A program made the translations under genes and the position numbers. Below, piece by piece: positions 7,313 through 24,421 of a stretch of DNA of 57,415 nucleotides (position 1 is the first letter of the stretch; each line of letters starts with the position of its first letter). A model generated the notes under the pieces. That model saw only the letters and a program-made list of their open reading frames with translations, ran no database searches and was not told the origin of the DNA. Source of the stretch: Candidatus Acidiferrales bacterium (GTDB lineage: Bacteria > Acidobacteriota > Terriglobia > Acidiferrales > UBA7541); assembly GCA_030037335.1 (NCBI GenBank), contig JASHRN010000237.1, forward strand, positions 1-57,415, read 5' to 3'.

Positions 7313-8386
7313 CTAGAAAATATTCAAGTGAATCTGCAAGAATTTCTTCGGATTGCGACGAAAATCTCCCATCAGGAGACGCATGTCTCCCGTTAGGCCG
7401 GTTAGGTTGTCGTAGAGCTGCGGATCGGTGAAGAATTTGCCGAAGGTGCCCTGCCCGTTGTTCATTTTGCCGGTGAGATGATTGATGTTTGCCGAAGCGT
7501 CCCGAAGATTCGTGAAAAGCGAATCGTCGGTGACGAATTTACCGAGACTTCCCTGCCCGTTGCGAATGCCGGCGAGGAGGCCATTCGTGTTGTCGAGGAG
7601 CTTGTCGGCCTTATCGTAAAAAGCGCGGTCGTAGACGAGTTTACCGAGGCTTCCCTGCTGATTTTGGATGGCCGCGGTCATGGATTCGAGGTGCGTAGCG
7701 CTGGCGTCGAATTTGTTGTAGAGGTCATCGGAAGTCAAAATTTTCCCCACGGAGCCCTTCCCCGCTTTGATATCGGAGACAAGGGATTGCGCACTCGCAG
7801 CGACGGAATCGAAATGGTCATAAAGAGACCGATCATAGATGAATGCGCCGGCCGTGCCTTTGCCGCTGTGGATGGCACCGACGATATCGCTCACTTGTTT
7901 TAGCACTGCGTTGACATTGTTCTCTAACTGAACGCCGTTGGCGACCATTTGCGTGAGGTCATTTCCGGCGACGCCCTGGATCACGCCGCCGTCGGGAATT
8001 GGGTCGCCGCTATATCCACGCGAAATGGTGACGTAACGATTGCCGAGAAGACCAGAAGTGAGAAGGCTGGCGTTCGAACTGGTACGAATGAGACTTTGAT
8101 AATCCTTCCCGATGCTCATGACGACTTCAATGCTGTCCTGCCGATTGGATGTGCTGGTGTTGACCTTCATATCTTCGACGTTGCCGACGGGCACGCCGTC
8201 GAGAGTGACCGGCGCGCCTTTCTGGAGGTCAGCGACCTCGGGCAGATAAGTCTTCAGCGTGTATTTGGCGCCCCAGGAGCTCGGCCCCGTGACGTAGAAA
8301 ATCGCGACGGCAATAATAATCAGACCGACGAGGACAAAGACTCCTACGCGAAGCTCTTCCCAGGTGATTTGCTTTCGTAGCGCCAT
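7313..8386 (-). CDS. mlaD: MlaD/MCE-family lipid-transport periplasmic protein
   Basis: A 357-residue protein with one N-terminal membrane anchor (residues 13-33, RVGVFVLVGLIIIAVAIFYV) and an MCE domain following at about residues 38-115 (YTLKTYLPEVADLQKGAPVTL.G..VG.V). The C-terminal half is a long series of near-repeats built on 'GKGSVGKILTSDDLYNKFD..' and 'GQGSLGKFV.DDSLF', typical of long MCE proteins. It binds lipid in the periplasm and works with an MlaE permease and MlaF ATPase. GAGGAG lies 7 nt before the ATG. It is the last gene of the mlaE-mlaF-mlaD minus-strand operon. Confidence 0.92.
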   Translation of the reverse strand: MALRKQITWEELRVGVFVLVGLIIIAVAIFYVTGPSSWGAKYTLKTYLPEVADLQKGAPVTLDGVPVGNVEDMKVNTSTSNRQDSIEVVMSIGKDYQSLIRTSSNASLLTSGLLGNRYVTISRGYSGDPIPDGGVIQGVAGNDLTQMVANGVQLENNVNAVLKQVSDIVGAIHSGKGTAGAFIYDRSLYDHFDSVAASAQSLVSDIKAGKGSVGKILTSDDLYNKFDASATHLESMTAAIQNQQGSLGKLVYDRAFYDKADKLLDNTNGLLAGIRNGQGSLGKFVTDDSLFTNLRDASANINHLTGKMNNGQGTFGKFFTDPQLYDNLTGLTGDMRLLMGDFRRNPKKFLQIHLNIF

Positions 8387-10324: not shown

Positions 10325-11497
10325 ATGCTGCGATTTCTCACGGCGGGCGAATCCCACGGCCAGGCGCTGGTGAGCTGGATTTCCGGCATACCGGCGGGTG
10401 TGCCTGTAGATATTGAATTTGTAAATCGTGAACTCCATCGCCGTCAACTTGGCTACGGTCGCGGCGGCCGGCAAAAAATAGAAAAGGACCAGGCGGACTT
10501 TCTGGCCGGAGTACGGCACGGGAAAACCATCGGGGCTCCGATTGCGATTCGCATCGAGAATCGCGACTGGAAGACGTGGGAGAAAGCCCTGCCAGTCGAA
10601 GACTCCGACGGAGCCGAAGATGCGCAGAGGCATCTGACATCGCCGCGACCTGGACACGCGGATCTTGCTGGTGCGCTCAAATTCAATTTTCATGATGCGC
10701 GATACGTATTGGAACGAGCGTCCGCGCGCGAAACGGCGGCTCGAACCGCCGCATGCACGCTGGCCAAGCTGCTCCTTCGCGAATTTGGCGTCGATGTGCT
10801 TAGTCACGTGATCGCCGTGGGACATGCGCAATTGGAGCGGGAAGCTACATGGGAAGAGATTGAGCGCGTGTGCGGGAATCTGGAATCGCCGCTGCGTTGC
10901 GTTGATGAAGCTGTGGAATTGCGAATGAAGGCGGAAGTGGATCAGGCGCTGAGGGCGGGAGATTCCGTCGGCGGAATTTTTGAGGTCGTGGCACGCGGCG
11001 TTCCGGCGGGACTCGGAAGCCACGCGCAATGGGATGAAAAACTCGATGGACGACTAGCGCAAGCGGTGATGTCAATCCAGGCCGTGAAAGCCGTTGAGAT
11101 TGGAACGGGCGTTCGAAATGCGACTTCATACGGATCGGAAGTGCAGGACGAAATCCGCTATGATAGTGAGCGCAAGCGATTTCAGCGCAGTTCGAATCGC
11201 GCGGGTGGCGTCGAAGGCGGTATCACAAACGGCCAGTATGTGGTTGTGCGAGGCTATCTGAAGCCGATTTCGACTTTGCGGCGCGCGCTGGGATCGGCAG
11301 ATCTGAAAACAAAGGAACAAATCAAGGCCGCGTATGAACGTTCGGACATCTGCGTAGTGCCGGCCGCGGGAGTTGTGAGCGAAGCAATGGTGGCATTTGT
11401 GGTGGCGCAGGCATTCCTCGAAAAATTTGGCGGTGACTCACTGGAAGAAACTCGGCGGAACTTCGAGAACTATCAAAAACAACTCGACGAGTTCTAG
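10325..11497 (+). CDS. aroC: chorismate synthase
   Basis: A 390-residue enzyme converting 5-enolpyruvylshikimate-3-phosphate to chorismate, the last step of the shikimate pathway, using reduced FMN. Family marks are TAGESHGQAL at the N-terminus, GRGGRQKIEKDQADFLAGVR, HLTSPRPGHADLAGA (about residue 107), ERASARETAARTA (about 132) and the C-terminal RALGSADLKTKE region. The length is typical. It begins a plus-strand run with def, fmt and rsmB; def follows after 11 bases. Confidence 0.97.
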   Translation: MLRFLTAGESHGQALVSWISGIPAGVPVDIEFVNRELHRRQLGYGRGGRQKIEKDQADFLAGVRHGKTIGAPIAIRIENRDWKTWEKALPVEDSDGAEDAQRHLTSPRPGHADLAGALKFNFHDARYVLERASARETAARTAACTLAKLLLREFGVDVLSHVIAVGHAQLEREATWEEIERVCGNLESPLRCVDEAVELRMKAEVDQALRAGDSVGGIFEVVARGVPAGLGSHAQWDEKLDGRLAQAVMSIQAVKAVEIGTGVRNATSYGSEVQDEIRYDSERKRFQRSSNRAGGVEGGITNGQYVVVRGYLKPISTLRRALGSADLKTKEQIKAAYERSDICVVPAAGVVSEAMVAFVVAQAFLEKFGGDSLEETRRNFENYQKQLDEF

Positions 11498-21292: not shown

Positions 21293-21393
21293 CTCCCCTT
21301 CCGCGCGGTGAAAATTCGCCGTGTGCGAAGGCGCAAAAGACGAGACTCGCGTACCGCGAGCCGCTGGCGTAGAATCCGCAAGAGGTTCCTGCC

Positions 21394-21654
21394 ATGGCAA
21401 ATGGATGCGCGCACGTCAGCGAAATCCGCAAAGTGACGCCCAGCGGAAAAGGCTGCAAAGAATGTCTGGAAATGGGCGACACGTGGGTGCATCTGCGGCT
21501 GTGCCTCATTTGCGGGCATGTCGGCTGCTGCGATTCCTCGAAAAACAAGCATGCGACCAAGCATTTTCACGCGACGAAGCACCCAATCATCCGTTCGTTT
21601 GAGCCCGGCGAGGATTGGCGCTGGTGCTATGTTGACGAAATGATGCTTGAATAG
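21394..21654 (+). CDS. UBP-type zinc finger protein
   Basis: An 86-residue protein that is essentially one ZnF-UBP domain. Metal ligands are visible: C5 and H7 (GCAHV), the pair in GCKECLEMGD, CLICGHVGCCDSS, and the His series in KHATKHFHATKHP, ending WRWCYVD. In eukaryotes this fold binds ubiquitin's C-terminus; bacterial stand-alone versions have unknown partners. It is first of a tight three-gene set: DUF5996 begins 6 bases later and overlaps the halogenase-like gene by 4. Confidence 0.88.
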   Translation: MANGCAHVSEIRKVTPSGKGCKECLEMGDTWVHLRLCLICGHVGCCDSSKNKHATKHFHATKHPIIRSFEPGEDWRWCYVDEMMLE

Positions 21655-21660
21655 ACCGCG

Positions 21661-22608
21661 ATGAACGCAAGCAAAAAAGTCACTGCCCCGAATGCGTGGC
21701 CGGCGCTTTCGCTGAAAGAATGGGAACCGACGCGCGCAACTCTGCACATGTGGACGCAAATGGCCGGCAAAGTAAAGCTCGCCCTTTGCCCAAACGAAAA
21801 CCATTGGTGGAACATCACGCTGCATGTAAACAGCCGGGGCCTAACAACACAAGCGATTCCATATGGCGACCGCGCCTTCGAGATGCAATTCGATTTTCAG
21901 AAGCACGTCCTTGAAATCCACTGCAACAATGGACAGCAGCGTGAAATCGAGCTGGCCCCGCGTTCGGTAGCCGATTTCTACCGTGAATTCATGGACGCGC
22001 TGGCATCGTTGGGTATTCACGTAAACATTTGGCCTATGCCCGTGGAAATTCCGAACCCGATCCGTTTCGACGAAGACCGCATACACGCTTCGTATGTCCC
22101 CGAATATGCGAGGCGGTTCTGGAGAGTCCTGCTTTCCGCGGAATCGGTGCTGGAGGAATTTCGGGCGCGATTCCTGGGCAAATGCAGTCCGGTGCATTTT
22201 TTCTGGGGCAGCTTCGACCTGGCCGTAACGCGATTTTCCGGCCGCCGCGCACCGGAGCGTCCGGGCGCGGACAAAATAACGCGCGAGGCTTATTCACATG
22301 AGGTGATCAGCGTGGGATTTTGGCCGGGAAATGAAGGCGCGAGCGACGCAGCGTTCTACGCATATGCCGCGCCGGAGCCTCAGGGATTCGCGCAAACTCC
22401 TGTACGTCCCGCAGCAGCATTCTACGAAAAGGGCCTCGGAGAATTCTTGCTGCGTTACGAAGACGTGCGCCGCAGCGATTCGCCTGCGCAATCCATGATG
22501 GATTTCGCGCAGAGTACGTACGAAGCGGGCGCGACACTCGGAAATTGGGACCGCGCGGCGCTAGAGCGCGCAGGCAACGAAACCGCCAGCAACGAAGCGA
22601 GCGCATGA
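21661..22608 (+). CDS. DUF5996 family protein
   Basis: A 315-residue cytoplasmic protein with no signal or membrane helix. It matches DUF5996 by its opening WPALSLKEWEPTRATLHMWTQM, NHWWNITLHV, FDFQKHVLEI, and the HFFWGSFDLAVTRFSGR and SVGFWPGN segments. The family's biochemical role is unknown to me. The gene sits between the UBP zinc finger and the flavoprotein, with an ATGA stop-start overlap to the latter, so the three are probably co-expressed and act in one process. Confidence 0.85.
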   Translation: MNASKKVTAPNAWPALSLKEWEPTRATLHMWTQMAGKVKLALCPNENHWWNITLHVNSRGLTTQAIPYGDRAFEMQFDFQKHVLEIHCNNGQQREIELAPRSVADFYREFMDALASLGIHVNIWPMPVEIPNPIRFDEDRIHASYVPEYARRFWRVLLSAESVLEEFRARFLGKCSPVHFFWGSFDLAVTRFSGRRAPERPGADKITREAYSHEVISVGFWPGNEGASDAAFYAYAAPEPQGFAQTPVRPAAAFYEKGLGEFLLRYEDVRRSDSPAQSMMDFAQSTYEAGATLGNWDRAALERAGNETASNEASA

Positions 22609-24392
22609 GCGGGGAAATCACAGACGTTTTGGTGATGGGCGGAGGCGCAACGGGCCAGCTTGCTGCGGCGTATCTGCGGATGCGCTTTCCCCAACTGAAA
22701 ATTGCGATTGTGGAAGGCCCTCACAAAAACCGGCCCATCGTCGGCGAATCCTTCGTTGAAATTACCATTGATTTTCTGCTGGAACTCGGGCTCGGCTCAT
22801 ATTTGATCGAGCATCATTTTCCAAAATACGGTCTCACTTACTATTTCAAGACGGAAATCGACCGTCCAGAAGACCGCACCTACGTGGTGGATGAAACGCC
22901 CACCGTTCCGCCGCTGCTTTCGTTTCAGATTAACCGTTTCACCTTTGACCGCGAAGTGCGGCGGCGAAATGTCGAGAGCGGTGTCGAGATGATTGACGGC
23001 AGCATCGATCAGATTGATTTAGGCAGCAACCGCGCGCTGCATTCGCTGACCGTTCGCGACGCAGAGGGCCGCGAAGTCACGATGCAAGCACGATGGCTGG
23101 TTGACGCCACGGGACGCAACCGCCTGCTCGCCAAGAAGCTGCAGCTCAATGACAAAGTGACGCTACAGAAAGACGTCTTCTGGTTCCGGCTGGCGAATTT
23201 CAATCCTGAGATTCTCGGGCGCATCAGCGCTGTAAAGAAAGAGAATCGCGCCTTCGTTCCCTATTTCGCGACGCATCATTTTTTCGGAAAAGGAAATTGG
23301 ATCTGGTGCATTCCCATGCGCGCGCCGGATAATTCGCCGTTTATCAGCATTGGCATCACCTATCGCAAGGACGTTTACCCGCACGGCCAAGTGCGCACCA
23401 TCGAGCAGTTCCTCGAATGCGTGGGGCGCGAGCACGAAATGATTGTGGAGCTGGTGCGCAGCGGTACAGTTTGCGACACGAATTATTACGGCTCGTATAT
23501 GTGGGAATGTCGCCAGCATTATTCAGCGGATCGCTGGTACATCATTGGCGACGCGGGCAACACAGTGGACCCGCTCTACAGCGTGGGCATGGCGCTGTCA
23601 TCCGTGCAGATCCGGCAAATCGCGGCGATGATTCAGCATGAACTCAATGGACATGATTGCCGTGAGTTCACAAAAGATTTGGATACGGCAATCAATTCCT
23701 TCCATCACAGTTTGACGCGCGACACAACGCGTCTGTATGAGTGCATGGGCGACGCATATCAATGCCATTTGCGCGTACATTTGATCGTCACCAAGCTTTT
23801 TCATTTGGGATTGCCCGCGCTGATGAACGATTATCTGTGGGATCCGCTCGGCACGAAATTGATCAATCGATTCGCTGACCTTGCAACACTCGAGCGCGAA
23901 TCGAAGGAATTTCACGATCTGATCCGCCGGGTCGCAGCGAATCCGAAAAATCACGCCATCGAGAATTTCATCAAAGTCCAGTCGAGCGATTCGATGAATT
24001 ACGAATTCTACGAATATCACCGAGAGGAAGAACTGCCGGCATCGTTGCGGCGGATGCTGTTTGGGCTCGCTCGATTGCGCCTTGACCTCCTCGCGGCGCT
24101 CGGCTGGCGCGGATGGACAGAGTTTCGACAGCATCGTGCAGTCGTACGAGACCTCTTGCGCGGCCTGGCGTTATTGCCATTTCACAGCAGAAAATTGCGT
24201 CAAAACTGGCTCGCTCGCCGCATGTTTCCCCTGCACCAGAACATGCCCGCCCATGAAGAAGCGATGCCGAATGCCGCAAACAGCGCGCCTCATTCCACGA
24301 ACGACTGGATGCCGGCAAAGCCAATGATGCGGACTCAGGCTGCGGGAAGCGGTTCTACAGCCGCGCGCGAGCCTCTTCCGGATGATAATTAA
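22605..24392 (+). CDS. flavin-dependent halogenase-like oxidoreductase
   Basis: A 595-residue FAD enzyme. The ATG at 22605 overlaps the DUF5996 stop (ATGA) and gives the dinucleotide motif GGGATGQLAAAYL at residues 11-23. The halogenase signature WxWxIP is present as NWIWCIPMRAP (about residue 230). A Lys in HHFPKYGLTYYF lies where tryptophan halogenases have their active-site Lys. The FAD segment GDAGNTVDPLYSVGMAL (about 317) has Tyr where tryptophan halogenases have Glu, as in phenolic-type enzymes. Halogenation or hydroxylation of an aromatic substrate is inferred. The C-terminal 200 residues are helical and unassigned. Confidence 0.8.
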   Translation: MSGEITDVLVMGGGATGQLAAAYLRMRFPQLKIAIVEGPHKNRPIVGESFVEITIDFLLELGLGSYLIEHHFPKYGLTYYFKTEIDRPEDRTYVVDETPTVPPLLSFQINRFTFDREVRRRNVESGVEMIDGSIDQIDLGSNRALHSLTVRDAEGREVTMQARWLVDATGRNRLLAKKLQLNDKVTLQKDVFWFRLANFNPEILGRISAVKKENRAFVPYFATHHFFGKGNWIWCIPMRAPDNSPFISIGITYRKDVYPHGQVRTIEQFLECVGREHEMIVELVRSGTVCDTNYYGSYMWECRQHYSADRWYIIGDAGNTVDPLYSVGMALSSVQIRQIAAMIQHELNGHDCREFTKDLDTAINSFHHSLTRDTTRLYECMGDAYQCHLRVHLIVTKLFHLGLPALMNDYLWDPLGTKLINRFADLATLERESKEFHDLIRRVAANPKNHAIENFIKVQSSDSMNYEFYEYHREEELPASLRRMLFGLARLRLDLLAALGWRGWTEFRQHRAVVRDLLRGLALLPFHSRKLRQNWLARRMFPLHQNMPAHEEAMPNAANSAPHSTNDWMPAKPMMRTQAAGSGSTAAREPLPDDN

Positions 24393-24421
24393 ACGGGCCT
24401 AATTCCGGGATCGGCCTAGTT

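Follow-up and report, generated by a model that had tools for sequence, protein, structure and literature searches.

The UBP-type zinc finger gene and the DUF5996 gene at this locus form an old two-gene unit, and the halogenase-like flavoprotein encoded immediately downstream is, judged from the genomes compared, a later arrival that joined this pair in the ancestor of the window's acidobacterial genus. A puzzling three-gene set is thereby replaced by a firm two-gene unit; the "odd set" seen in the initial annotation is really an old pair plus a genus-level newcomer. In our preferred explanation, to which we give a probability of about one half, the old unit and the flavoenzyme came together in the genus ancestor, the finger serves as an adaptor or sensor for DUF5996, and the flavoenzyme carries out chemistry like that of a two-component halogenase.

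Organization of the locus

The window (the whole stretch of DNA that was analysed, 57,415 nucleotides) belongs to a genome of the Acidobacteriota resembling Candidatus Acidiferrales and carries the three genes in a row:

21394..21654, + strand: UBP-type zinc finger protein, 86 aa, of the bacterial GCCD type (C45, C46, D47); PF02148, 54 bits
21661..22608, + strand: DUF5996 protein, 315 aa; PF19459, 451 bits
22605..24392, + strand: halogenase-like FAD enzyme, 595 aa; PF04820 (Trp_halogenase), 56 bits, with a match to PltA and placement in a tree

The finger and DUF5996 genes are spaced by 6 nt (21655-21660), and DUF5996 and the flavoprotein overlap by 4 nt, ATGA, at 22605-22608, in agreement with the tight operon originally described. 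Around the trio lie genes for a response regulator, FmdE, a GDSL lipase, an amidohydrolase, an alpha/beta hydrolase, a PilZ protein and a PilB-type ATPase. No PKS, NRPS or other biosynthetic genes turned up among the principal ORFs that we checked between 0.6 and 52 kb of the window, which upholds the earlier remark that no biosynthetic cluster surrounds the trio, and no flavin reductase or biosynthetic partner was seen near the flavoprotein. Just 5' of the finger gene, an element GCGTA(A/G)AATCC occurs in three genomes (window 21369-21379; L034 ~8124-8134; L043, from genome G030, ~11234-11246); spotted by eye only, it is possibly the -10 box of the operon promoter.

The finger and DUF5996 form a conserved pair

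Among 121 genomes of the class, the finger is found in 59 and DUF5996 in 39. They occur together in 38 genomes where 19 are expected, a comparison whose significance is overstated because it treats genomes as independent despite kinship within families. Since such statistics are too strong, our argument for pairing rests on changes in gene order and on spread over families. Of the 39 class genomes with DUF5996, 19 have the finger gene immediately beside it; both gene orders occur, and in 18 of these 19 the two share a strand. In a phylum sample of 247 genomes, the finger is present in 37 of the 44 that have DUF5996, and outside the class adjacent pairs (<=90 bp) occur in ten genomes of six families, again in both orders. 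Most of the genomes compared are MAGs. An Arthrobacter plasmid also carries DUF5996 followed by a UBP finger; neighbour reading at six further plasmid DUF5996 loci showed no finger beside the gene. As to whether all three families co-occur elsewhere, the UBP-DUF5996 part stands, being widely conserved, and the flavoprotein part does not, because it adjoins the pair only in the window's genus.

The DUF5996 protein matches its profile (PF19459) over the full length, covering positions 1-295 of 296. An alignment of 13 diverse homologues shows invariant residues H29, H48, H179, D186, R191, E209 and E214, and the protein is probably an enzyme. Searching the PDB with the DUF5996 profile gave no solved structure, only a single match at E 0.3, and an AlphaFold2 model built from two sequences was unusable (pLDDT 37). 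Our literature search gave nothing on DUF5996, and viral contigs held no DUF5996. For a family without known function or structure, a conserved partner provides a direct experimental handle.

A bacterial finger with a reversed charge

The finger scores well above the PF02148 gathering score (54 versus 22.7 bits), and its zinc-binding Cys/His set is conserved. It matches a solved bacterial structure, 2IDA, over its whole length (135 bits), with an identical Cys/His set and an identical GCCD signature, whereas it matches eukaryotic ubiquitin-binding fingers only weakly. HDAC6 grips the terminal glycine of the ubiquitin-type tail with R1155 and Y1184; the equivalent residues of USP16 are R84 and Y117, sites at which mutants are binding-deficient (PMC10424181). 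The window finger shares with these eukaryotic domains the Cys/His pattern of the zinc sites and the conserved pocket Trp and Tyr; aligned to USP16, it retains the Tyr (Y79), but Asp47 replaces the tail-binding Arg. It further differs from USP16 in having Asp at the last Cys of the first site and an extra invariant cysteine, which the finger residue table identifies as Cys46.

All 21 finger copies compared across four phyla have Asp47, as do all 40 from the class. The description of this domain as a "ubiquitin-tail-binding-type" finger is therefore not supported, each bacterial copy examined having Asp instead of the tail-binding Arg, and from these residues the window finger is unlikely to bind ubiquitin. 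Automatic labels that hint at ubiquitin binding for bacterial fingers are probably misleading. Our literature search returned nothing on bacterial UBP fingers.

Besides the reversed charge at the key position, these fingers have redox and ion-transport proteins as company. For a bacterial UBP finger to adjoin a flavoprotein is not unusual: the arrangement recurs with thioredoxin-reductase-like flavoproteins in several bacterial phyla. In Rhizobium, Agrobacterium, Rhodococcus and Streptomyces, the finger adjoins a cNMP-binding protein of this kind, which on Rhizobium, Rhodococcus and Streptomyces plasmids is the partner in place of the DUF5996 found here; thioredoxin and ClpB are also encoded at the Rhodococcus and Streptomyces loci, and a Burkholderia finger adjoins an FAD monooxygenase. 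Within the class, 11 of 40 finger loci have a cNMP-binding HATPase kinase or a thioredoxin-reductase-like protein as neighbour. In other Acidobacteriota, the finger is fused to cation/proton antiporters (Na/H-exchanger plus TrkA) and to an LtrA protein. Because of these neighbours and fusions, we infer that the finger works without ubiquitin, as an adaptor or sensor that leans toward redox functions. A broader version of this idea, in which GCCD fingers serve redox or electrophile responses as a regulatory module that is portable and independent of ubiquitin, DUF5996 is the unrecognised enzyme that it controls, and a new halogenase-like oxygenase was added in the genus, is rather doubtful.

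Two arrangements deserve mention in their own right. At five acidobacterial loci (L081, L082, L083, L093 and L098), a thioredoxin-reductase-like gene, a cNMP-binding HATPase kinase gene and the UBP finger stand in a row on one strand. The fused fingers (L120:485-2875, L121:2726-4792 and L123:1185-2612) sit at the C-terminus of larger proteins and keep the GCCD signature.

A halogenase-like flavoprotein with one altered signature

The residues discussed below map to the flavoprotein gene as follows:

22638..22655, + strand: GxGxxG, FAD-binding (G12-G-G-A-T-G17), from alignments
22824..22826, + strand: Lys74, candidate catalytic lysine, invariant in 13/13 aligned sequences
23298..23315, + strand: WxWxIP (W232-I-W234-C-I236-P237), from the alignment
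23562..23588, + strand: TVDPLYSVG (T320-G328), altered Fx.Px.Sx.G, from the alignment

The initial annotation called the flavoprotein halogenase-like, with WxWxIP and a candidate active-site lysine kept, and all three points are borne out. The WxWxIP motif, W232-P237, is invariant in our alignment, and Lys74, which directly precedes an aromatic residue and a Gly, as in PltA, is kept in all 13 sequences, the halogenase of the C-1027 enediyne region included. PF04820 matches at 56 bits, and a profile of nine members finds PltA as the best solved match (1e-24); 20 of its 21 matches to solved structures at 1e-5 or better are called halogenases. The one exception, 3NIX, is an uncharacterised flavoprotein with a WxWxIP-type motif of its own; therefore, these motifs do not prove halogenation. 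In profile searches and the tree the enzyme falls with flavin-dependent halogenases and halogenase-like proteins, but within the tree its clade stands apart on a long branch; the grouping with non-halogenating reductases that had been raised as a counter-case was not seen. In NCBIfam, CmlS (62.2 bits) and LodB (61.7 bits) score about equally, far below the cut-offs, with QhpG next. Identity as a geranylgeranyl reductase was rejected, as TIGR02032 gives 38 bits where its cut-off is 158.8. An AlphaFold2 model from four sequences was unusable (pLDDT 34).

Tryptophan halogenases carry a Glu (the E346 position) where the window enzyme has Tyr325. The substitution, noted earlier, is real but not diagnostic: the residue is Phe in PltA, CmlS, RadH and the C-1027 region halogenase and Tyr in many wider relatives, and we reject Tyr325 as a mark of lost halogenase function. 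In RadH, residues K74, D325 and F328 were reported essential (PMC10377541). The Fx.Px.Sx.G tunnel motif of flavin-dependent halogenases (PMC12871659) keeps its P, S and G in the window enzyme, with the first Phe changed to Thr320, a replacement common to its close clade. By the alignment, Thr320, and not Tyr325, is the real departure from the halogenase signature, and because of this altered motif we term the enzyme halogenase-like rather than a halogenase.

Compared with the non-tryptophan halogenases (PltA, CmlS, RadH and the C-1027 region enzyme), it thus shares GxGxxG, a catalytic-type Lys, WxWxIP and D-P-x-aromatic-S-x-G, but differs in the Thr just described, in Tyr for Phe at the E346 position, in its lack of a biosynthetic cluster and in its own clade, which the tree separates by long branches from every characterised halogenase. 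This clade is an uncharacterised branch of the halogenase superfamily with one signature residue changed, useful for asking what that residue does.

Some relatives do lie in gene clusters. In genome G021 and on a Methylorubrum plasmid, the homologue is part of a small cluster that also contains genes for methyltransferase, GNAT and FAD_binding_4-type oxidoreductase proteins. Wider relatives encoded on plasmids of Gloeothece and Janthinobacterium have polyketide synthases as neighbours. On the Gloeothece verrucosa plasmid (L058:10165-15840), three tandem halogenase-like genes stand beside type I polyketide synthase genes, with a DAFYS in place of a DPLYS signature. A second acidobacterial halogenase-like clade (L039-L042) reads DPLYSPG, some of its loci lying beside tandem ~800-aa proteins. 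On three unrelated plasmids (L057, L059 and L067), a cation:proton antiporter gene is near the halogenase-like genes.

Proposed chemistry

Because of the kept motifs, the halogenase matches and the gene clusters of relatives, a two-component halogenase appears the likeliest assignment, with a non-halogenating oxygenase nearly as likely. The enzyme would then work as two-component flavin-dependent halogenases do. A separate reductase would supply reduced FAD, which would react with O2, and the resulting peroxyflavin would oxidise halide to HOX. Passing through the tunnel, HOX would reach Lys74, and this residue would steer it onto a small, electron-rich substrate held apart from the flavin by WxWxIP. 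The finger, for its part, would act on DUF5996 as a small zinc-stabilised adaptor or sensor and would not read ubiquitin.

LodB, GoxB and QhpG look like halogenases, yet their role is to help proteins with quinone cofactors mature. That the window enzyme is likewise a non-halogenating FAD monooxygenase or oxidase of the halogenase fold is a serious contender, though we put it short of even odds. The altered Fx.Px.Sx.G, the level LodB and CmlS scores with QhpG next, and the missing biosynthetic cluster would all fit such an enzyme. It would nevertheless have to be reconciled with the invariance of Lys74 and WxWxIP, with solved-structure matches that are halogenases, and with the lack of a quinone-cofactor protein partner beside the flavoprotein. 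WxWxIP is moreover thought to prevent oxygenation (PMC10696468), and its retention weighs against a non-halogenating oxygenase.

History of the flavoprotein within the genus

Of the 121 class genomes, only 11 have a match to the flavoprotein at E 1e-20 or better, seven of these being close, and the protein's named relatives come from Candidatus Acidiferrales and other Acidobacteria MAGs. A single-protein scan of genome contigs gave only four flavoprotein loci, all close relatives; the phylum scan at a strict cut-off gave none beyond the window genome, and viral contigs held one weak relative. All five genomes of the window's genus have the flavoprotein, and in three of them (G000, the window's own, G081 and G122) it adjoins the pair with the identical ATGA overlap. 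In G121, DUF5996 and the flavoprotein are 3 kb apart, separated by an M48 peptidase gene on the opposite strand, and in G030 the flavoprotein is encoded on a separate contig, flanked by genes for a protein kinase and a SnoaL-like protein. A contig-break artefact was rejected for G030, where the two loci are well within their contigs (42 and 50 kb). The flavoprotein tree divides the genus into two sublineages, G081/G121 and G000/G122/G030. Because the genomes with adjacency fall in both, it would most simply be ancestral to the genus, with a later loss in G030 and a disruption in G121. The carriers outside the genus (G021, G039, G059 and G065) gave no match to DUF5996 or UBP.

Gene turnover beside DUF5996

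A remnant of another gene lies at the end of the flavoprotein gene:

24326..24399, - strand: fossil 3' end of a deiodinase-like gene (PF00837), a 74-bp match to the gene convergent to DUF5996 in G030 and to G122

Read on the reverse strand, the window fossil gives ELGPFNYHPEEARARL. It underlies the last ~22 residues of the flavoprotein, whose frame now runs through the remnant; this accounts for the enzyme's C-terminal tail, which is not conserved in the alignment. The convergent gene in G030 (L043:9231-9953) is deiodinase-like, scoring 138 bits to PF00837 with TGA read as Cys, and has its in-frame TGA at the active-site position, FGSYT-TGA-PPF. The window's genome keeps an intact TGA-containing copy elsewhere (G000:C163:25918-26424), between amidase and aminotransferase genes. 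By its sequence, the deiodinase-like gene apparently encodes a selenoprotein, with a selenocysteine-coding TGA.

Between DUF5996 and the amidohydrolase gene, the slot thus holds the deiodinase-like gene in G030, the flavoprotein and the 3' end of a deiodinase-like gene in G122, the flavoprotein and the fossil in the window, the flavoprotein and an S41 peptidase in G121, and the flavoprotein and a reverse-strand ORF of like position in G081. Such varied contents could mean that the flavoprotein came to lie here by chance, at a place where genes turn over, and that only the UBP-DUF5996 pair carries meaning. We consider this somewhat unlikely, as the flavoprotein is kept in 5/5 genus genomes, with the exact overlap in three. 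The opposite extreme, that the three genes are one functional unit in the genus, with the flavoenzyme's product or its redox state as the target of the finger and DUF5996, would suit the ATGA overlap kept in both sublineages and the pairing of UBP fingers with flavoproteins elsewhere. Those flavoproteins, however, are mostly thioredoxin-reductase-like, not halogenase-like; G030 has all three genes with the flavoprotein at another place, the G121 peptidase gene intervenes, and carriers outside the genus are without DUF5996 and UBP, so that we regard a single unit as improbable. An old pair joined by the flavoenzyme in the genus ancestor remains our preferred reading.

The G122 MAG has two distinct flavoprotein copies (G122:C211 and G122:C30), reflecting either duplication or strain mixture; one ends toward the deiodinase-like gene and the other adjoins the amidohydrolase.
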